Assembly: GCA_031277095.1 (NCBI GenBank)
Contig: JAISLU010000099.1
Coordinates: 1-42,210 of the forward strand
Reading direction: 5' to 3'
DNA: 42,210 nucleotides
DNA from: Synergistaceae bacterium
GTDB taxonomy: Bacteria; Synergistota; Synergistia; Synergistales; Aminobacteriaceae
The notes under the pieces were generated by a model. It had not been told where the DNA came from, did not search any database, and was given only the letters and a program-made list of their open reading frames with translations. This document shows positions 25,201 through 40,347 of the stretch, piece by piece. Both the position numbers and the translations under genes were made by a program. How positions within the stretch are numbered: position 1 is the first letter of the stretch; every line of letters begins with the position of its first letter.

Positions 25201-25228
25201 GAACGAGTACAGGAGAATGGCAAGCTGA
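22202..25228 (+). CDS. hsdR: Type I restriction enzyme, endonuclease/translocase subunit HsdR
   Basis: This 1008-residue motor-nuclease cuts unmodified DNA far from its recognition site after ATP-driven translocation. The PD-(D/E)XK nuclease is near the N-terminus: Asp119 in RPDITLLVNG and Glu133-x-Lys135 in FIEVKKPN. Two RecA-like helicase domains follow, with Walker A HTQGSGKT (residues 311-318), the DEAD-type box LDEVHRS (from Asp424), GLTGTPLLG and a late motif LTRVNRPYG. A helical C-terminal region binds the methylase. The start has GGAGCAAGG nearby. Its stop overlaps the hsdM start in TGATG. Confidence 0.95.
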   Translation: MAFNENTRVKIPAILHLTRLGYEYVPLSHAVRDEDTNIFTEIFAESVKRLSPGEEIDSVRIVNELKELLDYEDLGKAFYKRLVSDAGIKLIDFADFSKNSFHICTELTCKNGDDEFRPDITLLVNGLPLVFIEVKKPNNRDGILAERNRINARFQNRKFRRFLNATQFMIFSNNMEYDHESIVPIQGAFYASISATEAVFNCFREEDETIFDRIGEIDETVENFILKDNGLAAIKHSDEYITNKSPMKPTNRIITSLLSPGRLKIILKYGLTYVDAPEGLQKHVMRYPQFFATQAIERAIGNGVKKGIIWHTQGSGKTALAYFNVVYLTACFQRKNVIPKFYFIVDRIDLMTQARDEFVSRGLHVNTVNSKEEFVKNIKTVGALMGKGGEAEITVVNIQKFSEESRVASQGDYDINTQRIYFLDEVHRSYNPRGSFLANLFSSDKDAIFIGLTGTPLLGRKIKSTDGGKPVEYDSKDIFGDYIHKYYYNLSIEDGYTLKLIREGIETRYKLQLREVLEQIELLRGSANKRIVYAHPKYVQQLAAYIINDFQQSRIRLGDDTIGGMIVCESSDQAKTIYDVVCEKFPEISSALILHDVDDKETRKNNRDEFKLGNIDLLIVFNMLLTGFDAKRLKKLYLNRVVKDHNLLQTLTRVNRPYGQFRYGFVVDFADIRAEFDKTNAAYFHELQEEIGDEWEQYNNLFKSAEEIEAEIAEIAEKLFRYDIQNAERFSEQINAIDDRAEIMELKRVLENAKVLGNLITLYGHASLADKLDFVKLKQLLTEVTNRLALLNQKEAIENDADNINLINIALEDVIFRFVKVSEKELELGVVDKFKDQVRKTREAMQGNFDHDDEVYTTLYAELERIFKKKKLEEMTAEDIGENIILLRGIYDRITEQNRRDALLKAKYENDEKFARVHKRLVEKKIPEWDKREVSIHQALLGVKEETDSKLLLNRALLENEAFFAQDIQKPIIIQFGNVKLKLDATTAKQIDALIVSEYMNEYRRMAS

Positions 25229-26895
25229 TGAACAAGGCAATTACCGAAAAAACAAAACAACTGGTCGATGATTTGAAGTCGATATGCGCAAACCACGGTT
25301 TGGGCAATGATGGCAATGAATACAAGATCATCACCGAGGTCTTTCTTTACAAGTTTATGAACGACAAGTTTTTCTATGAAATTCGCCAGCTCGAACCGCG
25401 ATATGCGAAAGCCGGGAACCTTGAAGAAGTCTTGAAAGGTTTACCGGACGAGGAATATGATCTTCTTTTGCTCCAGCTCCCTGCGGGAGTCGCCCAGCTC
25501 AAAAGGGAGCATTTTTTGTCCAATCTCTATAACAACCAGAACAAGGAGCAGTACGCCAAATATTTCGACGACACCATGCGGGACGTGGCTATGTTCAATG
25601 CCGACATCTTCTCCGTCGGCACGTCAGGTGGCGAAAAGGTCCGGCTGTTCTCCGGAATCAGCAACTACGTCACCGAGGAAGCCAAGCGCGACGGATTCTG
25701 CAAAGCCATCGTCAACAAGCTGTTCGAGTGCAATTTCGGAGAGATTTTCCACGAGAAATACGACTTTTTCGCCACGATCTTCGAGTACCTCATCAAAGAC
25801 TACAACAAAGACGGCGGCGGCAAGTACGCCGAGTATTACACGCCCCACGCCGTCGCGCGGATCATGTCGGAGATTCTGGTCAAGGGCGACGTGTCCAACG
25901 CGCTTTGTTACGACCCTTCCGCAGGAACGGGTTCTTTGCTGATGAGTCTTGCCCATCAGATCGGCGAGGACCGCTGCACGATCTACTCGCAAGATATCAG
26001 CCAGAAGTCCAGCACGCTCCTGCGCATGAACCTGATATTGAACAACCTCGCCCACTCCTTGCAGAACGTGGTGCAGGGGAACACGCTCACCGAACCTTAC
26101 CATTTGCGGAAGAAGATGTATTTCGACTACATCGTCAGCAATCCCCCGTTCAAACTGGATTTTTCGGACTGGCGCGACAGTATCGATGCCAGCAAGCAGT
26201 CCGTGGTTGAGGACGAGAACGAAGTATCGCAAACATTAAAAAAGCGTTTTTTCGCAGGTGTTCCCAAGATCCCCAACAAGGAAAAAGACAAGATGGCAAT
26301 TTACCTCCTGTTCTTGCAGCACATCATATCATCGCTCAAACCCAACGGGAAAGCCGCCGTCGTCGTGCCGACCGGATTCTTGACCGAAGGCAAAGGAAAG
26401 CAAACGAACATAGCCAACAAAATCCGAATGCGGCTCGTGGATGAAAAAATGCTCCGCGCCGTGGTCTCCATGCCAAGCAATATTTTCGCCAACACGGGAA
26501 CGAACGTGTCTATTATCTTCATCGACAAAGGGAACAAAAAAGGCAAGGTCGCGCTGGTGGACGCGTCCAATCTGGGGACGAAAATAAAAGACGGAAAGAA
26601 CCAAAAGACGTTATTGTCGGAGGATGAAGAAAAAAGGATTATCGACGCTGTGAAAGAACAAGTCGATGAAGACGGTTTCTGCGTGGTCAAAAACTTTGAT
26701 GAGATAAAGGCAGGGAAATACTCATTCAATCCCGGCGGATACTTCGACATGAAGATTGACTATGTGGACATGACCGCCGAAGAGTTTTCAGAAAAAATGA
26801 ACGCGAGCAAGAGGCGTCTTGAGACTATGTTTGCGGAGAGTAAAGAAATTGAAGCCTTGATTTTTCGATGCTTTGAGGTTATCACGTATGAGTAA
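25228..26895 (+). CDS. hsdM: Type I restriction-modification DNA methyltransferase subunit HsdM
   Basis: This 555-residue adenine-N6 methyltransferase has an N-terminal helical HsdM domain (about 1-170). The catalytic domain has AEYYTPHAVARIM, the SAM-binding motif I DPSAGTGSL (from Asp229) and the catalytic motif IV SNPPF (NPPF at 305-308). Two HsdM plus one HsdS form the methylase; with HsdR they form the restriction enzyme. It is coupled at both ends: TGATG with hsdR, and an 8-bp ATGAGTAA overlap with hsdS. Confidence 0.96.
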   Translation: MNKAITEKTKQLVDDLKSICANHGLGNDGNEYKIITEVFLYKFMNDKFFYEIRQLEPRYAKAGNLEEVLKGLPDEEYDLLLLQLPAGVAQLKREHFLSNLYNNQNKEQYAKYFDDTMRDVAMFNADIFSVGTSGGEKVRLFSGISNYVTEEAKRDGFCKAIVNKLFECNFGEIFHEKYDFFATIFEYLIKDYNKDGGGKYAEYYTPHAVARIMSEILVKGDVSNALCYDPSAGTGSLLMSLAHQIGEDRCTIYSQDISQKSSTLLRMNLILNNLAHSLQNVVQGNTLTEPYHLRKKMYFDYIVSNPPFKLDFSDWRDSIDASKQSVVEDENEVSQTLKKRFFAGVPKIPNKEKDKMAIYLLFLQHIISSLKPNGKAAVVVPTGFLTEGKGKQTNIANKIRMRLVDEKMLRAVVSMPSNIFANTGTNVSIIFIDKGNKKGKVALVDASNLGTKIKDGKNQKTLLSEDEEKRIIDAVKEQVDEDGFCVVKNFDEIKAGKYSFNPGGYFDMKIDYVDMTAEEFSEKMNASKRRLETMFAESKEIEALIFRCFEVITYE

Positions 26896-28165
26896 ATGGA
26901 ATACAGTGCTTCTTTCAGATATTGCAGATACAACATTGGGAAAAATGCTCAATAAAGAGAAAAACTGCGGAGAATATGAACCTTATTTAGCAAATATTAA
27001 TGTGCGATGGGGCTCTTTTGACATTGAAAACTTATCGAAAATGCGTTTTGAAAATCATGAACAAGAAAAATATGGGTTAAAAAAGGGAGATTTAGTTGTT
27101 TGTGAAGGAGGAGAACCTGGACGATGCGCTATATGGCATGGGGAAATTGAAGGCATGAAAATCCAGAAAGCTCTTCATCGTGTCCGGGCAAAAAATGGTC
27201 TTGATATTCGGTTTCTTTATTATTGGTTTCTTATGGCAAGCCGCGCTGGATTACTTATAAAAAATTTCACTGGTTCCACAATAAAACATTTACCGGAAGA
27301 AAGCTTAAGAGAACTTGAAGTCAGGGTGCCGGATCAACAAACGCAAGCAAATATTTCAAATGTACTCTCTATTATTGACGACAAAATCCAACTCAACAAC
27401 ACCATCAACGCCGAACTTGAAAAAGTGGCGAAAACGCTCTACGATTACTGGTTCGTGCAGTTCGACTTCCCCAATGCTGAGGGCAAACCCTACCGCGCCA
27501 GCGGCGGGGAGATGGTTTACAACAAGATTTTGAAGAGGGAGATACCGAAGGGGTGGAAATCAGAGACGGTTAAGAACTGCGTTTCTCAAATCCGAACCGG
27601 CCTGAACCCAAGGCAAAATTTTGCGTTAGGACAAGGTGAAAATCAGTACATCACAATCAAGAATATCGAAAACGGTAAATTGGATTTCAGCAAATGCGAC
27701 TTTGTTGATGACGACGCACTGAGAAAAATTCACAATCGCTCGGACATTTCAGTGGGTGACATTCTATTTACGAGTATAGAACCAGTAGGTAGGCTTTATC
27801 GGATATGGGAACAGCCCCAAAACTGGGACATCAACGAATCAGTATTTTCAATCCGAACGGATACTGATGTTGTCTCAATCGATTATTTATATGCGGCCAT
27901 GGACAGTGACTTATTTCGTGCTATGGCAATTCCGTTAAGAACGGGCAGCGTCCAAAAGGGCATCCGTATTGGTGATTTAGAAGCTATGAAAATAGTAATT
28001 CCAGACGATAATGTTATGGAGCGATTTTCCAAGCGAATTCGTCCTATCTATGAAAAAAGGGGATTGATAGAAAAAGAGAACAGCGAACTAACATGTCTCC
28101 GCGACTTCTTGCTTCCGCTACTGATGAATGGGCAGGTGACGGTGGCGGTAAGCAATGTACGCTAA
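26888..28165 (+). CDS. hsdS: Type I restriction-modification specificity subunit HsdS
   Basis: This 425-residue protein chooses the DNA target for both methylation and cleavage. It has two target-recognition domains (about 5-155 and 220-390) separated by a conserved helical spacer (SIIDDKIQLNNTINAELEKVA, then YDYWFVQFDFPN); the second spacer ends LRDFLLPLLMNGQV. ATG 26888 overlaps the hsdM stop; an upstream start at 26873 would add five residues. The first recognition domain is AT-rich compared with hsdM, as expected from domain exchange. The target sequence cannot be predicted from this. Confidence 0.94.
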   Translation: MSKWNTVLLSDIADTTLGKMLNKEKNCGEYEPYLANINVRWGSFDIENLSKMRFENHEQEKYGLKKGDLVVCEGGEPGRCAIWHGEIEGMKIQKALHRVRAKNGLDIRFLYYWFLMASRAGLLIKNFTGSTIKHLPEESLRELEVRVPDQQTQANISNVLSIIDDKIQLNNTINAELEKVAKTLYDYWFVQFDFPNAEGKPYRASGGEMVYNKILKREIPKGWKSETVKNCVSQIRTGLNPRQNFALGQGENQYITIKNIENGKLDFSKCDFVDDDALRKIHNRSDISVGDILFTSIEPVGRLYRIWEQPQNWDINESVFSIRTDTDVVSIDYLYAAMDSDLFRAMAIPLRTGSVQKGIRIGDLEAMKIVIPDDNVMERFSKRIRPIYEKRGLIEKENSELTCLRDFLLPLLMNGQVTVAVSNVR

Positions 28166-30911
28166 TAATAGGGAGGGAATGATTCTGGTAGGCCCGACTA
28201 TAACGCTTTTACGAATTGATGAGCAGATTCTAGTCATCAATAAGACCATTTGCCGTCACATCGACAGCCTTGATACTTTCGGGAGAGGTATGGCTTCTCA
28301 AGATATTTTGTCTCATCTCAGGAACTTCGCTGAACATATCATGCTCAAAATATACACCAATGGGCAAGAGATCAGTGACGAATACGAGAACATACAAAAG
28401 GCTATCAATCATGTGAAAACAAGGGGTGAAGTGAGATTCTTACGGCGATTTCACGATTTTCTGCAAATCGTCGCGTCGCACTACACACTCGACGAGGAAA
28501 ACTCAGAGCGGCTGATGTTGAAATACTACGAGTACTTGCTAAAAATCCGGGAATTCTTAAAAACAAAGTATGCCCTTGATGTTTTGGGCAATCTGGATAG
28601 GTTCCCGATAAACACAGATTCAAACCTGAAAGAATACTATGAAAAAATTGCCGCTAAAGTAGACCGTCATGTCACATTGAATTCGGGTAACTCGTCTAAT
28701 GACAGGTTCTACATTCAAAAGATAAAACCGTTCTTTGTAAACCAGAAAACTTACTATGAGATCACCTTTTCACTCGCCCACGAAAGAACGAGCAAATTCG
28801 ATAGATTTATCGCGTTCACTGCTTTAGAAATCTCACAGTTCTATGCTGCAAAGCTGTTCATAGTTGACGACAAGATAGAAATTCTTGGCAGAACAATGCC
28901 TGTTTTTATTATTGTAAACTGGGAAGTATCGATTCGTCCCTGTGAGATAAATAACTTCGCACTAATTTTAGGTACGAATATAAATCTTGGAAGTGGTCAT
29001 GCGGAATATCGCATATTAATGCAATATTTGACCCAAACAGGATTCAACTTGGTTGAGTTTCTCGAATTCCCTGATGCTCATTTTCAGAATGTCAAACAGT
29101 CGATTGCTTCAAATGCAAGAAGTTCATCTTTTCTCAGCGTTTTAGAGAAATGTCGAGTGCTAATAAAAAGCGACTCGAAAGGTTGCAACATTCTTCGGTA
29201 TCTGCTTTATCACTTAAATAATAAAATTATCAAGCTACAGTACGAGAGAAACAGTGGTAATGGTTTCCTTTCGGGTCTTTGTCTAAAAAATAAGTGCATT
29301 CCGTTTGACACAATGCCCTTCAATACATCGTTAATTAATCATAATCCCAAACTTTCGGCGTTATTTGACTGTATTGATTCAACGAATAGAAAACACGAGC
29401 TGTTTGCGAGGTTTATCAAAAACAACACAGAAATAGAAGGACAACTTTATACCCCTGTTAAAGATATCATGAGCTTTGAAAATGTTGAGGCGCTAATTGA
29501 AACATACAACTACGCCCTATGGTCAGGACATGAAAGTCGCAAATTAAAAATATATAAACAGAATATCTACATCCGAGAATATCAAGAGGATACGCTGTTT
29601 ATTATCAGCAGACTTAAAGAACTGGCACAAGAAGGTGTTGCTAACTACTCAAAGTCAGTTATTTCTTGGTTGGAATCGTCTGATTATGCAATTGACAGCG
29701 ATGAAAAGAAAACGGTTTTGACACATATGTTCGAGAACTCGACAGTCGCACTGATTTATGGCTCTGCTGGAACAGGCAAATCTACGTTAATAAATCATAT
29801 CTCTCATTTCTTTTCCGACAAAAAGAAGCTGTATTTGGCAAACACAAATCCGGCGGTAGACAATCTCAAAAGGCGAGTGACAGCCTCTAACTGTACCTTT
29901 TTAACCATCACAAAGTTTTTGAACCGAAAAAATAATGTTACGGAATATGATTTACTGATTATTGATGAATGTAGCACGATAAATAACAAGGATATGCGGG
30001 ATATCTTGAAAAAAACGACGTTTAGACTCCTTATTTTGGTCGGAGATATTTATCAAATAGAATCAATCCGGTTTGGAAACTGGTTCAGCGTAGCTCGAAG
30101 TTTCATTCCCGATACTTCGATATTTGAATTGAAGACGCCTTTCAGAAGTAAAAACAAAGATTTACTCCTGCTGTGGGATAGAGTTCGGAATATGGACGAG
30201 ACTATACTCGAACACATTGCTAAGAAGGGCTATTCCACCACTCTGGATGCGTCAATTTTTGAATTCGCCGAATCGGATGAAATAATTCTGTGCTTGAACT
30301 ATGATGGTCTATATGGGATAAACAATATCAACCTTTTTTTACAGGCAAGCAATCCGAGCCTTGCCGTGCATTGTGGTATCCAATCTTATAAGGTCAATGA
30401 TCCTATATTGTTTAATGAGTCAGAGCGATTTGTGCCTTTAATTTACAACAATATGAAAGGGCGGATTGTTGGAATAGAAGTCCTGGAAAATCACATCCTG
30501 TTTGACACTGAATTGGACAAAGTTATAAATGGAATGGATGCCGCTGGATACGATTTTGAGTTATTGGAAAATTCTTCAAATGGAAATTCCGTGATTCGCT
30601 TTCGTGTCGACAAATATCAAACCACTGATGAAGATGACGATATTTCTTTAGCGTCTGTGATTCCGTTTCAAGTGGCCTATGCCATCTCGATTCATAAAGC
30701 GCAAGGGTTAGAATACAACTCGGTAAAAATTGTTATCACGGATGAAATCGACGAACGTATTACGCATAACATTTTCTATACAGCGATTACCCGCGCAAGA
30801 AAAAAACTCAAAATTTATTGGACACCTGAAGTGGAGAAAAACGTGTTGAACAATATTAAACCCAAAAACAACACTAAAGACGTTGCGTTATTGCGATGCC
30901 AACTGAAATGA
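28155..30911 (+). CDS. Superfamily 1 helicase/ATPase of unknown role inside the type I RM operon
   Basis: The C-terminal ~390 of 918 residues form an SF1 (RecD/UvrD-like) motor. Walker A is YGSAGTGKST (GSAGTGKST at 536-544), Walker B LLIIDECST (about 600-608), motif III LVGDIYQIES, then TPFRSKNKD, AYAISIHKAQGLEYNSVKIV and motif VI YTAITRARKK (from about 875). The N-terminal ~480 residues match nothing I recognise; they are helical, then beta-rich, and could be a substrate-recognition domain. It overlaps hsdS by 11 bp and is followed 9 bp later by the RhuM gene, so it belongs to this operon. ATG 28155 is used; ATG 28179 is the alternative. It is AT-richer than hsdR/hsdM. An anti-phage or DNA-processing accessory role is an inference. 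Confidence 0.8.
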   Translation: MYANNREGMILVGPTITLLRIDEQILVINKTICRHIDSLDTFGRGMASQDILSHLRNFAEHIMLKIYTNGQEISDEYENIQKAINHVKTRGEVRFLRRFHDFLQIVASHYTLDEENSERLMLKYYEYLLKIREFLKTKYALDVLGNLDRFPINTDSNLKEYYEKIAAKVDRHVTLNSGNSSNDRFYIQKIKPFFVNQKTYYEITFSLAHERTSKFDRFIAFTALEISQFYAAKLFIVDDKIEILGRTMPVFIIVNWEVSIRPCEINNFALILGTNINLGSGHAEYRILMQYLTQTGFNLVEFLEFPDAHFQNVKQSIASNARSSSFLSVLEKCRVLIKSDSKGCNILRYLLYHLNNKIIKLQYERNSGNGFLSGLCLKNKCIPFDTMPFNTSLINHNPKLSALFDCIDSTNRKHELFARFIKNNTEIEGQLYTPVKDIMSFENVEALIETYNYALWSGHESRKLKIYKQNIYIREYQEDTLFIISRLKELAQEGVANYSKSVISWLESSDYAIDSDEKKTVLTHMFENSTVALIYGSAGTGKSTLINHISHFFSDKKKLYLANTNPAVDNLKRRVTASNCTFLTITKFLNRKNNVTEYDLLIIDECSTINNKDMRDILKKTTFRLLILVGDIYQIESIRFGNWFSVARSFIPDTSIFELKTPFRSKNKDLLLLWDRVRNMDETILEHIAKKGYSTTLDASIFEFAESDEIILCLNYDGLYGINNINLFLQASNPSLAVHCGIQSYKVNDPILFNESERFVPLIYNNMKGRIVGIEVLENHILFDTELDKVINGMDAAGYDFELLENSSNGNSVIRFRVDKYQTTDEDDDISLASVIPFQVAYAISIHKAQGLEYNSVKIVITDEIDERITHNIFYTAITRARKKLKIYWTPEVEKNVLNNIKPKNNTKDVALLRCQLK

Positions 30912-30920
30912 GGTATCAGC

Positions 30921-31985
30921 ATGGCTGATAAGCGCAAATCGAAAGAGAGTACGGAAATCACCATCCGCAGTTCGGCGGCAGAATATTTGACCTTCGTAGC
31001 GGCGACGGGAAGCAGCGAAAGCAGTTTTGAAATGCGGTATGAGGATGAAAATATCTGGCTCACGCAGAAAATGATGGCGGAGCTGTATGATGTGGACGTT
31101 CGCACCATCAACGAGCATATTCAAAATATTTACATGGACGGCGAGTTACAGGAGGCTCCAACTATCCGGAATTTCCGGATAGTTCAAACCGAAGGCACGC
31201 GGCAGGTAATCCGTGAAGTGAAGCATTATGGCCTTCAAATGATTATCGCCGTGGGCTTCAAGGTCAATTCGGAGCGGGCGGTGCAGTTCCGCAAGTGGGT
31301 CAACAGGATCGCGAAAGACTACACCATCAAGGGCTGGGTCATAGATAAAGAGCGCCTGATGAACGGCGGCAGCGTCCTCACGCAGCAATATTTCGATGAA
31401 CTGCTTGAAGAAATTCGGGAAATCAGGCTGAGCGAACGCAGGTTTTATCAGAAGGTCACGGACATTTACGCGACTTCGTTAGACTATGACCTCGCTTCCA
31501 ACACGACCAAACGGTTTTTCGCGATGGTTCAAAATAAGCTGCACTGGGCAATCCACGGCCAGACCGCCGCCGAGGTGATATATGAGCGCGCGGATGCGGA
31601 AAAACGACACATGGGCCTGACCTCCTGGAAGAACGCGCCCCAAGGGAAAATCATAAAATCGGACGTGTCTATTGCAAAAAATTATCTGACAAAAGAAGAA
31701 TTGGAAGGGCTGAGCCTCATTGTCTCCGCATACTTGGACTTTGCGGAGTTGATGGCCCGACGCAATATACCGATGACGATGCAGGATTGGGCGAGGCAAC
31801 TGGACTTGATTTTGCAAGCAAACCGATTTGAGATTCTGGACAACCCCGGAAAGATTTCCGCCGAAATCGCAAAATATCACGCGGAATGCGAGTTCGAGAA
31901 ATATCGCATTGTACAGGACCAGCTTTTTCAAAGCGACTTCGACAAATTTCTCGCGCTGGAGCAGGAAATTGACGGTAAAGAATGA
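30921..31985 (+). CDS. rhuM: RhuM family protein
   Basis: This 354-residue member of the RhuM (virulence protein RhuM) family is often found next to type I restriction genes or on islands. It shows the family blocks IWLTQKMMAELYDVDVRTIN, IRNFRIVQTEGTRQVIREVKHY and RAVQFRKWVNRIAKDYTIKGW. The N-terminal part looks like a KilA-N/Bro-type DNA-binding helix region. The biochemical function is unknown. It is the last gene of the island operon, 9 bp after the helicase, with GAGGT before the ATG. A 25-bp palindrome lies within the coding sequence at the IRNFRIVQ codons. Confidence 0.88.
   Translation: MADKRKSKESTEITIRSSAAEYLTFVAATGSSESSFEMRYEDENIWLTQKMMAELYDVDVRTINEHIQNIYMDGELQEAPTIRNFRIVQTEGTRQVIREVKHYGLQMIIAVGFKVNSERAVQFRKWVNRIAKDYTIKGWVIDKERLMNGGSVLTQQYFDELLEEIREIRLSERRFYQKVTDIYATSLDYDLASNTTKRFFAMVQNKLHWAIHGQTAAEVIYERADAEKRHMGLTSWKNAPQGKIIKSDVSIAKNYLTKEELEGLSLIVSAYLDFAELMARRNIPMTMQDWARQLDLILQANRFEILDNPGKISAEIAKYHAECEFEKYRIVQDQLFQSDFDKFLALEQEIDGKE
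31160..31184. repeat. 25-bp perfect palindrome inside rhuM
   Basis: AACTATCCGGAA and TTCCGGATAGTT are exact reverse complements with one T between them. A 12-bp-arm palindrome in coding DNA is unusual; it could form a hairpin in mRNA or be a protein-binding site. Confidence 0.85.
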
Positions 31986-32348: not shown

Positions 32349-33218
32349 TTACTCGATCGTTTTGGGCACCTGGAACACCAGGACGGAACGGTAGCGGATT
32401 CCCTTCCATTCGGGATATCGCTCCGCCTTGTACTCATCCTTGTTTTTAGGCGCGGCTTCGTCGATATATTCTATGGCCACTATCCACGTTCCCGGACGAT
32501 CCGGCCTGAAAGCCACTTTGCCCGAAGCGTCCGTCTTGCTGAAGAGATATTCGTTGTTCTTCTCCTCCCCTTCTTCGGAAGAAGCGGGAAGGGGCGCTCC
32601 GTCGTAGGTGGCGGAAACTTTCGCGCCGCCCAAGGGCTGCCCGCGCAGGGTCACCAGCACGGCTATCTCGTCTCCCCAGGATATCGGGCCGAGGTTCTCC
32701 GCCTGGGTTATCTCCAGAACGTCGTCTCCCCCGTACCTCTGGGTGGACACGGAGTCCGCGGCCCAGTTGATCAGGCTTTTGCCGTAGGCGACGGTGGGGC
32801 GGGTTCCGCTGTTGAAGTCGTACCTCATCATGACCACCGATGTCCCGGGTTTTTCGACGACCACGTTCCCTTTGTTGTAGGAGGAATCCCCAGGCTGGGC
32901 CTCGTTGGCGGGGGCGAGGGGAATCGAGGCTCCGGAGCCGTCCGCATATTTTATCGCGGCGGTGAGGCTGGCGACGCCGCCATCATGACCCACCTCAGCC
33001 ATTTTTTCTTTGGAATAATCGAATTTTATCAGCGGCTCCGCGAGACCGGCCTTGACCTCGATGGACTCCCCAGGCTTGACCAAAAATTTGCCGGGCTGCG
33101 GAACGGGAAGATGCGCTCCGGCGGGAATGACGAAAAACATCACGATAAACGCGCAGAAAACCGAAATACCTGTCATCCTCAGAGATGACGTCCTCGTATT
33201 GAATACTTGCTTGATCAC
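32349..33218 (-). CDS. Exported DUF4198 family protein, metal-uptake associated
   Basis: This 289-residue protein has a signal peptide (hydrophobic MTGISVFCAFIVMFFVIPAG, cleavage near AGAHLP). A beta-rich body follows that begins HLPVPQPGKFLVKPGES and contains Ig-like segments such as GGAKVSATYDG and GKVAFRPDRPGTWIV. DUF4198 proteins are periplasmic and are often encoded beside nickel, cobalt or zinc transport genes; they probably help metal handling. It is the last gene of the metal block. The GTG start has AAGGAGGAG. About 210 bp separate it from the TIGR03943 gene, so it may have its own promoter. Confidence 0.8.
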   Translation of the reverse strand: MIKQVFNTRTSSLRMTGISVFCAFIVMFFVIPAGAHLPVPQPGKFLVKPGESIEVKAGLAEPLIKFDYSKEKMAEVGHDGGVASLTAAIKYADGSGASIPLAPANEAQPGDSSYNKGNVVVEKPGTSVVMMRYDFNSGTRPTVAYGKSLINWAADSVSTQRYGGDDVLEITQAENLGPISWGDEIAVLVTLRGQPLGGAKVSATYDGAPLPASSEEGEEKNNEYLFSKTDASGKVAFRPDRPGTWIVAIEYIDEAAPKNKDEYKAERYPEWKGIRYRSVLVFQVPKTIE

Positions 33219-33431: not shown

Positions 33432-34313
33432 TCAAAAGGGGTAAATGTATCCTTCTATCGCCGCCGCAGGGGTGATGGCGGTTATGCGGGCCTGGGGCTC
33501 GCGGTATCCGTTTTCTTCGGTGATGTGGATGACGCCTTCGACCGTGACCCACGTGTCGTTCTGCAGCTCTTCCGTTTTTTCATATTTGCAGATCATCCCA
33601 TAGGGAAGCAAGTCGGCCACGCAGCAAGACATGACGAGACGGGCAGGGACGAATTCGTCCGGTTGCAGCAACTCCGGGTCTTTAAGAACGAACCCCGTCA
33701 TTTTTACGGCATAACCGGCGTAGGTGTCGGGATTCATGAACATCTCTTCGAGCCAGGGATAAAACTCGCCGTCGCTTATGGTTATCCTCTTGGCCGACGC
33801 ATCCAGGCCGGACAACGCCGCAGAAGCCACCGAGTCCTGAGGGACGGGCGGACTTTCGCCGGACAGAAGCTCCGAGAGATCAGGAATATCTGAAGGATCA
33901 AGAATATCTGAAGGATCAGGAATAGCTGAGAGATCTGGAAGGTCGCCGATTTCCGAAATATCGGGACCGCCGGGAGTGCTGTCGCCGGACCGGGCGCCTC
34001 CTCCCCGGGCGAAGGCGTAGGACAGGTCGGAGGTACTCAGAGGGCCGTGAGGAAGCAGGAGCAGCAAGATGGGGAGGGCCAGCACCAGGCAGTGGGCGGA
34101 GCGCGTTTTGTGCTGTGGGGGTCTGCCCAGCCCCGTCCAGGACCAGAGCAGCATGACGGCCGCGGTGAAATAAAGGTAAGGCTTCATCCTTGGGGTGACG
34201 TAGGCGAGATACTGTCCGCTGGTCACCAGATACAGGGTCGAGACCGAGAAGGAAAAACAGCATAGGGACTCAAGAAATGCCTGGGCATTTAAAAGTTTGG
34301 GGCGAACCACCAC
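33432..34313 (-). CDS. TIGR03943/DUF1980 family membrane protein (YcgQ-like permease partner)
   Basis: This 293-residue protein has two N-terminal membrane hairpins, then a long acidic Pro/Ser/Asp linker with 6-residue repeats (PDPSDI, LDPSDI, PDLSEL). Its conserved C-terminal domain contains FYPWLEEMFMNPDTYAG, TGFVLKD and ARLVMSCCVADL. TIGR03943 proteins accompany the DUF318/YcgR-type permease and are thought to form a two-part system, often with COG0523 GTPases and zinc regulators. It begins 24 bp after the permease fusion. The GTG start has AAGGAGG. Confidence 0.85.
   Translation of the reverse strand: MVVRPKLLNAQAFLESLCCFSFSVSTLYLVTSGQYLAYVTPRMKPYLYFTAAVMLLWSWTGLGRPPQHKTRSAHCLVLALPILLLLLPHGPLSTSDLSYAFARGGGARSGDSTPGGPDISEIGDLPDLSAIPDPSDILDPSDIPDLSELLSGESPPVPQDSVASAALSGLDASAKRITISDGEFYPWLEEMFMNPDTYAGYAVKMTGFVLKDPELLQPDEFVPARLVMSCCVADLLPYGMICKYEKTEELQNDTWVTVEGVIHITEENGYREPQARITAITPAAAIEGYIYPF
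33881..33934 (-). repeat. Three 18-bp tandem repeats in the TIGR03943 linker
   Basis: On the plus strand the units are CAGGAATATCTGAAGGAT, CAAGAATATCTGAAGGAT and CAGGAATAGCTGAGAGAT. They encode the acidic PSD-rich linker. The two first units differ by a single base, which suggests recent duplication. Confidence 0.9.
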
Positions 34314-34337: not shown

Positions 34338-35930
34338 TTACATAATCAAGAAAAAATCAAAAAAAACGAAAACGGCCGCGAAGCAGACCGCAAAGGCGAC
34401 GATGGACAGTTTGACGACAAAACCCTTGGGAAAACTGTGGGAAAGCATCATGAAATTTTTCACGTCCATCATGGGCCCGAACAGCAAAAATCCCATGACC
34501 GCCCCGGGTGGAAATTGATTCGCAAAACTGCGGGCCACCACCGCGTCGGAGGACGAGCAAAGGGAGAGCATGAATCCGGCCAGCATCAAGACCGCCGTGG
34601 AAATCGCCAGCCCAGAGCCGCTCCGCCAGGAGGCAAACACCGTTACGCCCGATGCCTGAAAGATCGAGGAGACCAAAATCCCAACCATCAAATACTTGCC
34701 GACGTCGAAAAACTCGGCCTGGGCATGGCGGAAGAAGAGACCGATCTTCTCCCTGACCCCCAACACAGAGCCCAGGGATTCGTAACAGCCGCACCGGCAC
34801 AGCAGCGCGTCGATCCCCTCTCGGGGCAGCAGCGTTTTTTTCGTTTTTGAGGAACGGACGGCGAGCCCTATTGAAACCGAGCAGAGGACGCCTAATAAAA
34901 TACGCTCGGCGACCACGCGCAGATTTCCGCTGAAAGCGTAGTAAGTGGATAAAATGACGACGGGATTGATGACGGGGGCGGACATCATGAACGTCACGGC
35001 CGCCGGCAACGGAACCCCCTTCCGCACAAGGCTCCTGAAAATCGGGATCGACGCGCAGTCGCACACGGGCAGGCAAAAACCGGAGGCGATCGCCGTCAGC
35101 ATCCCCATACCGATCGTTTTGGGAAATCTTCGTTCTATGGCGGACCTGCTGACAAAAATTTCGATGGCCGAGGAAAGGTGTACCCCGATCAGCAAAAACG
35201 GGACGGCCTGAAGAGCTATCCCCAAAAAGACGTTCACACATTTGTTGACGGGTATCTCCGCCAGCTCCAAAAAGGGCTTGCCGACGATATAAAGCCAGAC
35301 CGTCAGGAGTATCGAGAGGAAAAAAAACGTCAAGGGCGCCCTTCTCTTTTCAAAAAGTTCCTTGTAGACGTTTTTGCAGGAGGAAGCGTCATAGACGGGA
35401 AGACCTTCGTTGACGGCTCTGAGGGCGGCCTTCGCCGTTTCCTTCTCTTTATTTTTATCTTTATCTTTATTTTTATCGTCTTCTCGGCCGTTTCTGAGTA
35501 CCGCGAAGTCGCAATTGGCTATCTGCTCCAGTAAAACGCTGCCGCTTCTGCCGATCAGGGAATTGAGCTGGGCGGCTTCGGCTACGTGCAAGACTTTACT
35601 GATTTTGCAAAACTTTTTAAGGGCAGGATCGAGGAGGATGGCGAGAAGCTGGGAAAAGGGCGCGAAGCCGTTCCACTCGATCCAAATTTCGTCGAAATTG
35701 CCGTTTTCCAGGGACTCCTCCAGCCGACGGACCACCGTTTCCGGCTTGAGCTCCAAGGTTTTTTTGGAGAACACCAGGTTTTCCGCATAGGCCTTCCCGA
35801 GGCTCGCTTCTCCGGCCTCGAACTGCACCACCAGCTTCGATATGTCGTCACCCTCGTCCAGCAACGCGTTCAGGAAGGTGGTTTTACCGGAACCCAAAAA
35901 CCCGGTGACGACGTAGACCGGTATTCTCAT
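34338..35930 (-). CDS. Divergent COG0523 (CobW-like) GTPase fused to a DUF318/ArsP_1-type permease
   Basis: The first ~190 of 530 residues are CobW-like, with a clear P-loop VTGFLGSGKTTFLNALLDEG. The usual CxCC metal motif is absent; the EPSG-type block is replaced by WIEWNGFAPF and the NKxD motif is degraded (LRNGREDD). A charged linker (DKNKDKDKNKEKE) leads into a permease of about eight membrane segments. That part has the DUF318 signature LPVCDCASIPIF, then GVPLPAAVTFMMSAPVINPVV and CSSSDAVVARSF. YcgR-type permeases of this family act in metal or metalloid handling. ATG 35930 overlaps the previous stop as ATGA. The fusion would place a GTPase, or a relic of one, directly on the channel. 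Confidence 0.85.
   Translation of the reverse strand: MRIPVYVVTGFLGSGKTTFLNALLDEGDDISKLVVQFEAGEASLGKAYAENLVFSKKTLELKPETVVRRLEESLENGNFDEIWIEWNGFAPFSQLLAILLDPALKKFCKISKVLHVAEAAQLNSLIGRSGSVLLEQIANCDFAVLRNGREDDKNKDKDKNKEKETAKAALRAVNEGLPVYDASSCKNVYKELFEKRRAPLTFFFLSILLTVWLYIVGKPFLELAEIPVNKCVNVFLGIALQAVPFLLIGVHLSSAIEIFVSRSAIERRFPKTIGMGMLTAIASGFCLPVCDCASIPIFRSLVRKGVPLPAAVTFMMSAPVINPVVILSTYYAFSGNLRVVAERILLGVLCSVSIGLAVRSSKTKKTLLPREGIDALLCRCGCYESLGSVLGVREKIGLFFRHAQAEFFDVGKYLMVGILVSSIFQASGVTVFASWRSGSGLAISTAVLMLAGFMLSLCSSSDAVVARSFANQFPPGAVMGFLLFGPMMDVKNFMMLSHSFPKGFVVKLSIVAFAVCFAAVFVFFDFFLIM
35446..35482 (-). repeat. Hexamer repeat in the GTPase-permease linker
   Basis: On the plus strand there is a run of TTTATC/TTTATT hexamers, encoding alternating DK and NK dipeptides between the two domains of the fusion protein. 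Confidence 0.8.
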
Positions 35931-36943
35931 TTGCAAAATATGTCGGCAAGTTCCGCCCGGTGGATGCCGTGTCCTATGAAGCATATCACGTCTCCGGCGC
36001 TGGGTTTTACGGAGCTGGGCTCTATTGTCAGCTCCCCGGGGAGGTATTGCAGGTTCAAACAGCCGTCTTTCCCTCTGAGGATACCTTTTGCCCGGAGTAC
36101 CTTCCCCCCCCAGAGCTTCTCCATGTCGGATACGCAGGCCCTCAGCTCCCCTTCTCCGAATGTCCGCCCCGGACGCAGGGTGACGCTGTCGAAAAAATCC
36201 TCGGCCGAATGATCGCCGTGCCCATGATCGTGATCGTGATCATGCACATGATCGTGTCCGCAGCATTGAGGGGAGATTTCGGCCATTGTCTTCTGTATTA
36301 TCTCCTGCATTATTTCCTTCGCTGTTTCCTTCGCTGTTTCCTTCGCGGCGTCCCGGCAGGGGGACAATATCTCTCGGGCGGTGATCTGCTCCCAGGGTTG
36401 TGACAGGATTCTCGCGTTTTTGTTGAGCTCCCTCACCCGCCTGCGCGCGGCGTCCGCCGGTGAGACCCTGTTCAAGAGGACGGTGTCGGCGTATCGTATC
36501 TGGTCTTCAAAAAATTCCCCGAAATTGTCGAGATACATTTCGCAGCGGCCGGCGTCCACCACCGTAATGTTATCCCGCAGCTCCGCCAAAGGGGCTATTT
36601 TGGGGTCGAGGCACCCTTGAAGGACGTCGGAGAGTTTGGCGACCCCCGAGGGTTCTATAAGAACCGTGTCCGGCTTGAAACTCTCGATGGTTTCCCCCAG
36701 GGCCTCGACAAAATCCCCGGAGAGAGAGCAGCAGATACACCCTGAGTTTATCTCTGTCACCTGGAGGTCCGTGACCTGAACGCCGCCCGCGCCCAGCAAA
36801 GCGGCATCGATGTTCGCCTCGCCAAAATCGTTTTCCACTATCGCCACTTTGTGGTCTCGGAAGGCCTCGTCCAGCAGCTTTCGGATCAGCGTCGTTTTCC
36901 CGGCGCCCAGAAACCCCGATACGATATATATTCCTGTCGGCAT
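35927..36943 (-). CDS. COG0523 (CobW/YjiA-like) metal-chaperone GTPase
   Basis: This 338-residue G3E GTPase probably delivers or allocates zinc. It shows P-loop GFLGAGKTT (10-18), the metal-binding CxCC motif NSGCICC (Cys69, 71, 72), EPSGVAKLSDV (98-108) and a degenerate NKxD (LNRVS). A linker of AKET repeats (about 200-210) and a His/Asp-rich metal segment (HDHVHDHDHDHGHGDH, about 230-245) precede the CobW C-terminal domain. I start at ATG 36943 with AAGGGTG before it; the longer open frame upstream is only the shadow of the fur gene. It starts 5 bp after fur, which supports zinc-regulated COG0523 function. Confidence 0.92.
   Translation of the reverse strand: MPTGIYIVSGFLGAGKTTLIRKLLDEAFRDHKVAIVENDFGEANIDAALLGAGGVQVTDLQVTEINSGCICCSLSGDFVEALGETIESFKPDTVLIEPSGVAKLSDVLQGCLDPKIAPLAELRDNITVVDAGRCEMYLDNFGEFFEDQIRYADTVLLNRVSPADAARRRVRELNKNARILSQPWEQITAREILSPCRDAAKETAKETAKEIMQEIIQKTMAEISPQCCGHDHVHDHDHDHGHGDHSAEDFFDSVTLRPGRTFGEGELRACVSDMEKLWGGKVLRAKGILRGKDGCLNLQYLPGELTIEPSSVKPSAGDVICFIGHGIHRAELADIFCK
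36307..36344 (-). repeat. 12-bp tandem repeat in the CobW-like gene
   Basis: Two exact copies of GCTGTTTCCTTC (36321-36344) with a degenerate copy before them encode AKET-AKET-AKEI just ahead of the His-rich segment. Confidence 0.88.
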
Positions 36944-36948
36944 ATTTT

Positions 36949-37365
36949 TCACCCTTGCGTATTGCATTTCTTGCAATAACCGTAAATTTCCACCTTGTGC
37001 CCTGTCACGTAAAAATCGTTGTCCTCCAGTTGGGGTATGAACTTTTCCATGGGACAGTTGTCCATTTGAACGACCTTCCGGCAGCTCAAGCAGATGGCGT
37101 AATGCTTGTGTTCGAAGCGGTTCATCTCGTACACTGCGAAGTCGTTGTTCAGCATGGATATTTTCGTCACGATCCCCTTTTTGACAAACAGCTCCAATAT
37201 TCTGTACACGGTCGACAGCCAGACCTTTTCCCCGTCTTTCCGGACCTGGGCGCATATATCCCCCGCGCTCAGGGGAACGGAAGAACCCTCGAGGACCGAG
37301 AGGACGCTTTGTCTTTGCCTGGTTTTCTTGATACCGGCGAGCCATTCCACGTTTGAATATCCCAC
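36949..37365 (-). CDS. Fur family regulator, probably zinc-responsive (Zur)
   Basis: This ~138-residue protein has an N-terminal winged helix (KTRQRQSVLSVLEGSS, then VWLSTVYRILELFVKKGIV). The C-terminal metal/dimer domain has HKHYAICLSCRKVVQ and GHKVEIYGYCKKC; the two CxxC pairs form the structural zinc site. Its place between znuB and the COG0523 GTPase points to zinc as the co-repressor. Start choice is uncertain: GTG 37365 has GAGGAG ten bases upstream, while a TTG at 37383 would add six residues. A binding box was not identified. Confidence 0.88.
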   Translation of the reverse strand: MGYSNVEWLAGIKKTRQRQSVLSVLEGSSVPLSAGDICAQVRKDGEKVWLSTVYRILELFVKKGIVTKISMLNNDFAVYEMNRFEHKHYAICLSCRKVVQMDNCPMEKFIPQLEDNDFYVTGHKVEIYGYCKKCNTQG

Positions 37366-37480
37366 GTTTGCATCGCTCCTCAATAAAGCATATCACCTGC
37401 GGACCCTTGTTTGGTTCATGTATCGGAGTTAAATGATACTCCATTTTGGGCCGCCGCTATCTCGAATCTAAAACCCAAAT

Positions 37481-38281
37481 CTAAAATTTAAGGAGCTTTT
37501 TTGCGGACAAGATGAGGATGAGGCACGCGACTCCCAGGAGTACGATGGTTCCCCCCGGCTTCAACCGGGCGTAGTAGGAAACGTAAAGCCCTGCCGCCGT
37601 GAAAGCGACAGCGAAACACACCGAATAGATGACGGTCCGTTTGTAGCTTGCCCTGAGCTGCATGGCGCACGCCACCGGAATGACCATCATGGACGAGACG
37701 ATCAGCACACCCACCGTTCGCGACGCTATGGACACGGTGATGGCCGTCAGAACCGTGAAGATGTTGTTGACCATGCCGACCGGCACGCCGGCCAAACGGG
37801 CCGCCCTTTCGTCGAAGGCAATAAAAAACAGCTCTTTATACAACAGCACAAACGCCAGCATCACCGCGAAGCTGACGCACACCACCAGCGTCATCTCGAA
37901 ATCGCTGAAGGCCACGATACTGCCGAACAGAAAGCTGTTGAAGTTCGCCGCGTTTTTGACGAACCCGGACAGCACGCCGGCCATTCCGATGCTGGACGAC
38001 AGGACGACGGCGATGGCGATATCGGAGTACTGGGGCATTTTTTTGCGTATGGTCTCGATGCCCAGGGCGGCCACAACACAGGTGACGCCCGCGCCCAAGA
38101 TGGGATTGACCCCCATCACCAGGCCCGCGGCGACTCCCGCCAGGGAGGAGTGGGACAGGGCGTCACCGATCATGGTGAGCCGCTTCAGCACCACCACAAC
38201 CCCGATGCAGGGGATGATCACCGCCAGCAGGAGACCTACGATAAAGGCCCTGCGCATGAACTCGTATTCAAAAAGAGCCAT
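37481..38281 (-). CDS. znuB: Zinc ABC transporter permease ZnuB
   Basis: This 266-residue membrane protein has about eight segments of the ABC-3 family. It shows VLKRLTMIGDALSHSSLAGV, the family's conserved loop near the N-terminus, and later RTVGVLIVSSMMVIPVACAM. I start at ATG 38281 (MALFEYEFMRRAF), which overlaps the znuC end by 14 bp; the longer open frame to 38425 is a shadow of znuC. It forms the membrane channel of the high-affinity zinc (or manganese) importer. Confidence 0.93.
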   Translation of the reverse strand: MALFEYEFMRRAFIVGLLLAVIIPCIGVVVVLKRLTMIGDALSHSSLAGVAAGLVMGVNPILGAGVTCVVAALGIETIRKKMPQYSDIAIAVVLSSSIGMAGVLSGFVKNAANFNSFLFGSIVAFSDFEMTLVVCVSFAVMLAFVLLYKELFFIAFDERAARLAGVPVGMVNNIFTVLTAITVSIASRTVGVLIVSSMMVIPVACAMQLRASYKRTVIYSVCFAVAFTAAGLYVSYYARLKPGGTIVLLGVACLILILSAKKLLKF

Positions 38282-39017
38282 GACGCTTCGCCCCTTCTCG
38301 AGAACGAGCCGGGTGTTTGTGTTTGTGGGACAGCTCCTCGATAAACTGAGTTTTTTCGAGTTCCACGAGGGAACCTTTTTCGAGGCATAGCACCCTCGAA
38401 GCGTATTCCAGGATGTTGTCCACATCGTGGGTGATCATCATCACGGTGATGCCCTGGGTTCCGTTCATCCGGGACAGCAGCTCGAACATGGATACTATGG
38501 AGGGCAGATCCACGCCGCTGGTGGGCTCGTCGAGCATCAGCAACTCAGGATCGCTCACCAGAGCCCGCGCCAACATCACCCGCTGCCTCTGCCCTCCGGA
38601 AAGGTCGCCGATCAGCCGCTTCGCGAACGCCGCCATGCCCACCCGCTCGAGAGACTCGCGCACCTTTTCTCTGTGTTCCTTTTTGGGAAACCGTAAAAAG
38701 CCTATCTGTAAAAACAAATTGCTCATCACGATTTCCTCCACCGTTGCGGGGAAATCCCCGTTCGCCAGAGAACCGTTCTGGGGCAGGTAACCGATGGCGC
38801 GCCGTTCTCTCGGGCGGCTATCGTCTCCGAACAGCCGGATTTTCCCCTTGGGCGAAGCGAGTTCCCCCAGTATCAGGCGAAACAGCGTGCTTTTTCCCGC
38901 GCCGTTAGCGCCTATGACGACGACAAAATCTCCCTTGCGGACGGCAAAACTGACTTGAGAAAAAACCGGCTCTCCTCCGTAGCTGAAGCCTAAATTTTCT
39001 ACCCTGACGACGCACAC
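38268..39017 (-). CDS. znuC: Zinc ABC transporter ATP-binding protein ZnuC
   Basis: This 249-residue ATPase has Walker A GANGAGKST (36-44), Q-loop IGYLPQNG, the signature LSGGQRQRVMLARAL and Walker B LLMLDEPTSGVD, then the H-loop MMITHDVD. The start is GTG at 39017, 8 bp after znuA. It powers import with ZnuB and ZnuA. Confidence 0.94.
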   Translation of the reverse strand: MCVVRVENLGFSYGGEPVFSQVSFAVRKGDFVVVIGANGAGKSTLFRLILGELASPKGKIRLFGDDSRPRERRAIGYLPQNGSLANGDFPATVEEIVMSNLFLQIGFLRFPKKEHREKVRESLERVGMAAFAKRLIGDLSGGQRQRVMLARALVSDPELLMLDEPTSGVDLPSIVSMFELLSRMNGTQGITVMMITHDVDNILEYASRVLCLEKGSLVELEKTQFIEELSHKHKHPARSREGAKRHGSF

Positions 39018-39025
39018 GGCGGCCT

Positions 39026-40009
39026 TTATTGCAGCGCCGCCGCCAAAGACTTCAGGTTTCGCCGCATCACCGCGAAATAATCGATCCCCGACGCGATTTC
39101 TTCCTCACCGAGGCCCTCCATCGGGCTGAGCATGTCCGTCGCCGCGCCCGTGGCTTTCGCAATGGTTTCCGCCACCTTGGGGCTCGCCAGTTCCTCAAAA
39201 AAGATGACTTTTACGCCGTGTTCCTTTACAAAATCGATGATTTCCGCCATTCTCCCCGGGTCCGGCTCCGAATCGGGAGAAAGCCCCTCGATGGGAACCT
39301 GCCGCAGGCCGTATCTCTCGCATATATACCCGAAGGCCTGATGAGTGACGACAATATCCTTCTTGGGCAGAGGGGCGAGGATGTTGGTGAACTCTTTATC
39401 CAGCGCGTCGCACTCCGCGGCGTATTTTTCATAATTGGCCTCGTAATAACTTTTGCCCTCGGGATCGGCCTGGACCAGGGCGTTTTTGATGTTCTCCAAT
39501 TCCGCCTTTGCGTACACCGGAGAAAGCCACACGTGGGGGTCGTGAACCTCGTCCTCGTGTTCATGATCATGCTCTTCGTCTTCATGCTCATCTTCATGTT
39601 CGTCCTCATGAGACTCGTGATGGTGTCCTTCCAAAAGTTTTATGCCTTTGGAGGCCTCCACTGTTATCAATGCGCGATTCTGCAAAACACCGAGGACATC
39701 GCTGACCCAGTGTTCCATCCCGGCCCCGTTGTAAACGAAGACCGCGGCTTTCTCCAGCTCCGCGATATCCGCGGCGGCGGGTTCCCAGTCGTGGGGTTCC
39801 ATCCCCGCCGGGACCATATTGGTCACGCTGACCCTCTCTCCGCCGATTTTCACGGCAAAATCGTACATGGGATAAAAGCTGGCGAGCACGGAGAGTTTTT
39901 GCGACTTGTTCTCATTTACGGCTCCCATGACCGGACTGTACCCTCCCCACCCCTCCAGCAAAACGAGAGCGGCAACACAAACCCAAAGCGTCATACAAAA
40001 ACGTTTCAT
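39026..40009 (-). CDS. znuA: Zinc-binding protein ZnuA of the ABC importer
   Basis: This 327-residue exported cluster A-I (ZnuA/AdcA/TroA) binding protein has a signal peptide (MKRFCMTLWVCVAALVLL, cleaved near VMGAVNE). The metal ligands are in VPAGMEPHDWEP, DPHVWLSP and VTHQAFGYI. A long His/Asp/Glu loop (GHHHESHEDEHEDEHEDEE and on) is characteristic of zinc rather than manganese binders. I use ATG 40009 with GGAGG about ten bases upstream; a start at 40036 would add nine residues. It is the first gene of the metal operon. Confidence 0.94.
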   Translation of the reverse strand: MKRFCMTLWVCVAALVLLEGWGGYSPVMGAVNENKSQKLSVLASFYPMYDFAVKIGGERVSVTNMVPAGMEPHDWEPAAADIAELEKAAVFVYNGAGMEHWVSDVLGVLQNRALITVEASKGIKLLEGHHHESHEDEHEDEHEDEEHDHEHEDEVHDPHVWLSPVYAKAELENIKNALVQADPEGKSYYEANYEKYAAECDALDKEFTNILAPLPKKDIVVTHQAFGYICERYGLRQVPIEGLSPDSEPDPGRMAEIIDFVKEHGVKVIFFEELASPKVAETIAKATGAATDMLSPMEGLGEEEIASGIDYFAVMRRNLKSLAAALQ

Positions 40010-40126: not shown

Positions 40127-40230
40127 AGTGTCGTTTAACTTAAAAAATGTTAAATTTACACGCGCTAAATAGGGCAATTGACTTGTTTTTTAGCTATTCT
40201 AACTTTAGGTTTTTTATTTTAATCACTATA
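40127..40230 (+). repeat. ~100-bp dispersed element, copy 2
   Basis: This copy reads in the plus direction, toward the Leu/Ile/Val-type binding-protein gene, and is inverted relative to copy 1 at 12863-12964. The core TCGTTTAACTTAAAAAAT, the block TTTACACGCGCTAAATAG and the end ACTTTAGG...AATCACTATA are shared. Copy 2 has an extra ACTTG, creating TTGACT. Its left end (AGTG before TCG) deviates from copy 1, so its terminal inverted repeat is worn. It lies between the divergent znuA and binding-protein genes. Confidence 0.75.
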
Positions 40231-40250
40231 AATGCAAATTACTTGCATTT
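40230..40250. promoter_or_regulatory. Operator-like dyad next to repeat copy 2
   Basis: AAATGCAA, spacer ATTAC, TTGCATTT form a perfect 8-bp inverted repeat directly after the TATAAA at the end of the element. Its size and position suit a repressor site. No regulator is identified. Confidence 0.45.
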
Positions 40251-40347
40251 GATGGGATTTTACCCTCGCCGATTTGCGATGTCAAGGGACGCCCCATATT
40301 CCGGCACAGAGGAGCCCGCACACAGAAATATAAATTTTATTTTAGTA

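Follow-up and report, generated by a model that had tools for sequence, protein, structure and literature searches.

A gene in a contig from a Synergistaceae bacterium (GCA_031277095.1, contig JAISLU010000099.1; all 42,210 nt of the stretch analyzed are referred to here as the window) joins a CobW-like GTPase domain that lacks the metal-binding motifs of its COG0523 relatives to a DUF318-type permease, next to a COG0523 gene that has them. We asked whether this join is real, whether the domain is a broken enzyme or a working one, and what such a domain might do in an operon of znu-like genes.

The fusion gene and its operon

In the window, a G3E domain and a permease are joined in frame in one 530-aa product (Table 1). 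Pfam cobW (PF02492) matched aa 4–146 (E 4.3e-12, 46.4 bits, cut-off 20.7) and ArsP_1 (PF03773) matched aa 229–523 (E 1.4e-51, 175.9 bits, cut-off 32.3), so that the fusion of a CobW-like GTPase to a DUF318 permease proposed in the original prediction is real, with one frame and both domains over their cut-offs. CobW_C (PF07683), a domain that is not obligatory for every COG0523 protein, was absent from the fusion protein and present in the neighboring COG0523 protein. The window's genome has a single copy of the fusion and, at E ≤ 1e-10, two further PF02492 proteins, namely the COG0523 partner and one on contig C3 that looks HypB-like. The operon runs znuA, znuC, znuB, Fur-family regulator, COG0523, fusion, TIGR03943.

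Table 1. Features of the fusion gene and its operon in the window, by position.
Feature	Position	Strand	Basis or remark
TIGR03943/DUF1980 partner subunit	33432..34313	-	TIGR03943 143.7 bits, cut-off 88.8; DUF1980_C E 1.6e-31
Fusion gene, 530 aa	34338..35930	-	Single open frame; ATG overlaps TGA of upstream COG0523 gene (ATGA)
ArsP_1/DUF318 permease part, aa 199–530	34341..35336	-	PF03773; hydropathy segments from aa 197 on
CRCGC motif, aa 378–382, central low-confidence loop	34785..34799	-	C378 and C380 invariant in 15
VCDC motif, aa 289–292, permease	35055..35066	-	V289, C290, D291, C292 invariant in 15; C290 and C292 invariant in 25
N-terminal metal-site-less G3E (CobW-like) domain, aa 1–197	35340..35930	-	PF02492; HypB/YjiA/UreG fold, Z 13–15; CxCC deleted and ExNG in 23/23
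Charged KNKDKDKNKEKE insertion in G domain, about aa 150–166	35433..35483	-	Alignment
Canonical COG0523 GTPase, CICC, EPSG, His-rich stretch	35927..36943	-	
Fur-family regulator (Zur-like)	36949..37383	-	PF01475 E 8.1e-22
znuB-like ABC permease (frame; true start probably further in)	37481..38425	-	PF00950 E 1.8e-55
znuC-like ABC ATPase	38268..39017	-	PF00005 E 2.5e-32
znuA-like zinc-binding protein	39026..40009	-	PF01297 E 2.1e-91; likely start ATG 40009 after GGAGG
Palindrome AAATGCAAGTAATTTGCATTT, putative Zur operator	40230..40250	.	Palindrome comparison of related operons
Sigma-70-like promoter, TTGACA-17-TAAAAT	40257..40285	-	11/12 matches; directly before palindrome

Occurrence of the fusion and its gene company

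Full-length fusions of the close family, at 44–58% identity, were found in Clostridia (three named strains) and in other Synergistota. A contig scan gave 13 loci, all of them nearly full-length fusions with 50–58% identity, which include Tissierella praeacuta DSM 18095, Sedimentibacter hydroxybenzoicus DSM 7310 and Faecalicatena contorta NLAE-zl-C134, the rest being metagenome-assembled and mostly from Clostridia. The search for this domain pair in other genomes, which had been suggested as a check, therefore returned full-length fusions from named strains as well as from many assemblies, and for this reason we rejected an assembly error as the origin of the join. Both such an error and a lack of conservation in relatives had been named in advance as outcomes that would speak against the fusion; we checked for each, and neither occurred.

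At E ≤ 1e-20 the N domain was present in 6 of 185 genomes of the window's phylum, a count that includes the genome of the window itself and a fragment at a contig edge (G041) lying outside the 25 loci compared below. It was also found in at least 4 of 398 genomes from the phylum to which the Tissierella genome belongs and in 10 of 145 relatives of the F. contorta genome. Four of these 10 relatives carry permease fusions by frame length (528–533 aa, 6 matches), and the other six have frames of 318–338 aa, of which L130, L131, L133 and L134 are of the soluble type described below by motif, an assignment that covers those four genomes, with the frames of L129 and L132 outside it. Occurring in a few genomes of several groups, the fusion is widespread, though patchy in its distribution. 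A second, divergent fusion copy is present in both T. praeacuta and F. contorta; in T. praeacuta this copy (L051, G191:C43) belongs to a second complete operon of znuA-C-B, zur, COG0523, fusion and TIGR03943, divergent from that at L039 of the same genome, and this second operon may serve another metal.

TIGR03943 lies downstream of the fusion in all 25 loci (L035 and L063, which come from a single contig, were counted once), and COG0523 lies upstream in 22 of the 24 that have upstream sequence in view, L032 being cut. The conserved order is thus COG0523, fusion, TIGR03943, often accompanied by ZnuABC and Zur. The exceptions to COG0523 adjacency, L052 and L053, are near-identical paralogous fusions that follow znuB. 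An unfused counterpart was seen at L121, in which a COG0523 gene (CVCC, NKSD) directly precedes a plain DUF318 permease and TIGR03943, with znuCBA and a second COG0523 gene alongside.

The metal and nucleotide sites of the fused domain

We aligned 23 fused domains (two pairs of which are 94% identical) with 20 COG0523 partners. The P-loop, GF[LI]x[AS]GKT, was found in 23/23 fused domains, and the CICC columns were empty in all of them, as opposed to CICC in 20/20 partners. At the position of EPSG, which all 20 partners keep, the fused domains read EWNG (21), EQNG (1) or EYNG (1), that is, ExNG without exception. YjiA is the nearest solved sequence to the fused G domain (E 6e-11), and the column of its zinc ligand E37 held Q in 18 and R in 5 of the 23 fused domains versus E in every one of the 20 partners. 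The title of structure 4ixn names a Zn-bound E37A/C66A/C67A YjiA mutant, which gives the residues changed by its authors; judged by the alignment, every zinc ligand mutated in YjiA is gone from the fused domain.

The base-recognition motif NKxD is also lost in the fused domain, with RNGR in the window copy, and is altered in the partners too (SRTE and similar), so its loss is not diagnostic for the fused domain; with this site gone, nucleotide binding or the preference for GTP may be weak or changed. The original prediction's reading of the window copy, an intact P-loop with CxCC, EPSG and NKxD lost or altered, stood: the copy has GFLGSGKT, no CxCC, EWNG in place of EPSG and RNGR at the NKxD site. 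Its label of a degraded domain proved misleading, since the losses are identical in every copy. Its description of the neighboring COG0523 protein as normal holds for CICC and EPSG, and fails at NKxD, which reads NRV- there and is SRTE-like in most partners.

The invariant residues of the domain cluster on the nucleotide face: by hand count, 17 of 26 fall in the P-loop with the first helix or in the two switch regions, QFExGE and DEIWIEWNG, so that the conserved switch positions are kept along with the P-loop. The N-domain dN/dS (NG86) was 0.25 for L042/L044 and 0.10 for L052/L053, with few changes per pair, which points to purifying selection on the N domain in these two close pairs. Uniform losses, a kept P-loop and ExNG, and these two ratios disfavor neutral decay, and the fused domain is, as far as its sequence tells, metal-blind rather than degraded.

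The charged repeat KNKDKDKNKEKE had been taken for a linker leading into the permease, which is wrong. It follows the strand on which NKxD would lie, and the segment downstream of it still aligns with COG0523; we therefore rejected the linker reading and describe KNKDKDKNKEKE as an insertion within the G domain, the longest of the 23 copies at that position.

An AlphaFold2 model of the fusion built from 25 sequences had a pLDDT of 84.6 and a pTM of 0.69. Residues 1–197 of the model matched HypB (Z 14.8), UreG (14.6) and YjiA (13.9), and Ffh/FtsY folds were among the structural matches. Likeness to COG0523 proteins of the CobW/YjiA/YciC/ZNG1 type thus lies in PF02492, in the P-loop (GFLxxGKT) and Walker B (E..G) and in the YjiA/HypB/UreG fold, whereas the fused domain differs from them in its deleted CxCC, its replaced E37-type ligand, ExNG in place of EPSG, the lack of CobW_C, and its fusion to a permease or, as follows, to DUF1980_C.

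A soluble form of the same domain

F. contorta also encodes a 315-aa protein with PF02492 (E 2.4e-7) and DUF1980_C (PF21537, E 1.4e-20) and no hydrophobic segment, beside a canonical COG0523 gene. DUF1980_C is the C-terminal domain of TIGR03943. Among 299 genomes of the phylum to which F. contorta belongs, 6 encode this soluble form, with 7 proteins in all. Each of these scores over cut-off for both Pfam domains, has a P-loop but lacks CxCC, reads E[YF]NG and carries an MTCC motif conserved among them; six of the seven adjoin COG0523. Its model had a pLDDT of 90.1, and the DUF1980_C part gave a few OB-type structural matches. At L105/L122 (7662–8594, plus strand), a soluble metal-blind G3E-DUF1980_C protein has no COG0523 gene nearby; the product of the gene that follows presumably resembles NifX/NifB-like proteins.

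A PF03773 permease at E ≤ 1e-10 was absent from 7 of 10 genomes chosen for carrying the soluble form. Since this form occurs without the permease, it is COG0523 and DUF1980_C that consistently accompany the metal-blind domain, with the permease optional, and the common role would be pairing with COG0523 and not gating. A tree of 61 rows placed the 21 domains fused to a permease and the 7 fused to DUF1980_C in one branch (100/98) apart from the partners and from other COG0523 proteins, and the permease-fused set formed its own branch in 6% of bootstraps. A single branch outside the COG0523 partners, in which every copy has lost the metal site but kept the nucleotide site, supports the suggestion that a paralogue was reused for a role other than that of a chaperone.

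The permease part

The modeled permease resembled Pho90 (Z 15.2 over 300 residues), NaS1 (14.4), NaDC1 (13.7) and ArsB (13.2), which we take to be members of the ion transporter (IT) superfamily. Foldseek on this part of the model gave E-values that were not significant, these folds coming from a second comparison alone, and values of Z up to about 14 are doubtful for helical models; the model thus suggests an elevator fold of the ion-transporter superfamily at scores close to that doubtful range. The CxC of the central loop was present in all fused copies read (21 rows and L064). The plain DUF318 relatives that we read have PxCEC and Cys/His-rich or His-rich loops, and the fused ones PVCDC and CxC(GC).

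Two plain Synergistota DUF318 permeases, L097 and L098, have strikingly Cys/His-rich central loops and a TIGR03943 partner, with no GTPase seen nearby. At L120 (3022–4902, minus strand), a DUF318 permease with a TIGR03943 neighbor carries a different N-terminal extension, which looks to us like a PKD-type extracellular domain.

A palindrome at the operon start

We searched the window with the B. subtilis Zur-box consensus as query. It gave no significant box in the window, the best match being 14/22, with shuffles equal or better in 35%. The weak matches resembled one another, and a different palindrome, AAATGCAAGTAATTTGCATTT, was therefore taken as the query. On the minus strand the promoter ends at 40257 and AAATGCAAGTAATTTGCATTT occupies 40250–40230; it is the sole near-perfect match in the 2.72-Mb genome, the next having 3 mismatches and being AT-rich.

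With up to 5 mismatches allowed, 25 sources contained 18 matches, where single-base shuffles would lead one to expect 2.0; this comparison is not independent, as the palindrome was derived partly from these loci. Similar palindromes occurred in 12 of the 25 sources, and 11 were judged to lie at operon starts (the window, L034, L036, L037, L038, L041, L043, L051, L060, L061 and L062); the match in L098 was judged to be chance, and several of the five in L034 may be. The same scan found none in L033, L035, L039, L042, L044, L052, L053, L059, L064, L065, L096, L097 or L121, some of which are cut inside the operon. A Fur-family regulator in the operon and a shared palindrome at the promoter are features of a Zur regulon, and the placement directly after the promoter fits what a repressor needs. 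From this, we read AAATGCAAGTAATTTGCATTT as a putative variant Zur operator.

A proposed docking role and its alternatives

A metal-blind domain that is paired with a zinc-chaperone gene across many bacteria is probably a docking partner, not a broken enzyme. Specifically, we propose, with about even confidence for and against, that the N-terminal domain docks, in a manner that depends on nucleotide, with the COG0523 zinc chaperone whose gene immediately precedes the fusion; gene adjacency and fusion suggest contact between the two. When zinc is scarce, Zur would release the operon, and COG0523 would meet the fused domain at the membrane and pair with it, as the signal recognition particle (SRP) does with its receptor. 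Metal would then move among the CxCC of COG0523, the CC motif of the DUF1980 subunit, and the CxCGC loop and VCDC motif of the permease, and COG0523 would most likely be loaded with incoming zinc, although direction and metal are guesses. We infer nucleotide binding by the fused domain, the docking of COG0523, zinc as the metal and inward flow alike. The comparison with Ffh/FtsY is one of working principle, two related P-loop GTPases of which one is at the membrane and one soluble; it concerns another GTPase family, and for the G3E case we deduce the pairing. Against docking are the loss of the NKxD site, the L052/L053 fusions and the L105/L122 soluble form, which have no neighboring COG0523, and L121, where COG0523 beside a plain permease implies that such operons can do without the docking domain.

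More tentatively still, metal-site-less G3E domains might constitute a receptor class for COG0523 metallochaperones, in which a nucleotide-controlled, SRP-like heterodimer would hand zinc between an acceptor (the permease or the OB-like DUF1980_C) and the chaperone, coupling transport and delivery by a GTPase pair; we find this conceivable but doubtful.

The docking proposal would connect two families. A metal-site-less G3E paralogue is fused to a domain of each half of the DUF318-TIGR03943 (YcgRQ/ScfAB) pair, which provides a testable link of COG0523 to that pair and predicts that COG0523 forms a heterodimer and that the pair has a role related to zinc. It bears on how COG0523 proteins receive or pass metal and on what the DUF318-TIGR03943 pair does, both left open in the portions of the cited papers available to us. 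The window's ArsP_1-family permease and TIGR03943-type partner gene resemble YcgR/YcgQ (ScfA/ScfB; SMU.746/747), and in group A Streptococcus the pair goes by the name ScfA/ScfB, to which the accessible text assigns no function (PMC5584981). In Bacillus anthracis, Zur boxes in a region shared with yciC precede the operon of an ArsP_1 permease (BAS1632), and Zur binds there in vitro by EMSA, the authors having inferred positive regulation from the box position (PMC6336718, available part). A link to zinc and Zur is common to that operon and, putatively, the window's. Those YcgR/YcgQ-type and BAS1632 permeases have no reported G domain in the same partial texts (PMC6336718, PMC5584981), unlike the permease of the window. 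Within the literature searched, mostly outside subscription papers, no title or abstract opening describes a GTPase-DUF318 fusion, and the main text of Haas 2009 as available (PMC2770081) contains none of the words "permease," "fusion" and "fused."

One of the two readings offered in the original prediction was a nucleotide-gated permease, in which the G domain would bind GTP or GDP and open or close its own permease, COG0523 not being needed. Covalent fusion to the permease, an invariant P-loop and the N-terminal position directly before the first membrane segment would all suit such a gate, but the same domain is found on DUF1980_C without a membrane segment, most of the soluble-form genomes chosen lack the permease, and COG0523 adjoins nearly all fusions, so that gating gains no specific support and we consider it unlikely. 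We also think it improbable that the module is an exporter that, under zinc scarcity, removes a competing thiophilic metal (such as copper, cadmium or cobalt) brought by the COG0523/docking pair. The Cys motifs VCDC and CxCGC, the ArsB-like fold listed for the permease part and distant PF03773 relatives named as efflux transporters (the SO_0444 Cu/Zn efflux model at 55.9 bits and SaoE at 44.4, far below their cut-offs of 300 and 325) point toward export; the module nevertheless shares its operon, with one promoter and palindrome, with ZnuABC import, which makes uptake or hand-over the simpler reading. Finally, we find it very improbable that the N-terminal domain is a relic in decay whose sole remaining role is structural or in membrane insertion: CxCC and NKxD are lost and identity in the close family is lower in the N domain (about 40–53%) than in the permease part (about 50–66%), but P-loop, ExNG and the QFExGE-type pattern are invariant across phyla and paralogues, and dN/dS is low in both pairs.

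Other genes of the window

Downstream of TIGR03943 and on the same strand lies a gene for a DUF4198 protein (32349–33218; PF10670, E 5.1e-17) with an N-terminal hydrophobic segment, which is possibly the last gene of the operon. On the plus strand, 22202–31985 holds a run of long frames (1008, 555, 430, 918 and 354 aa) that we suppose could be a restriction-type island, its last gene being RhuM-like.
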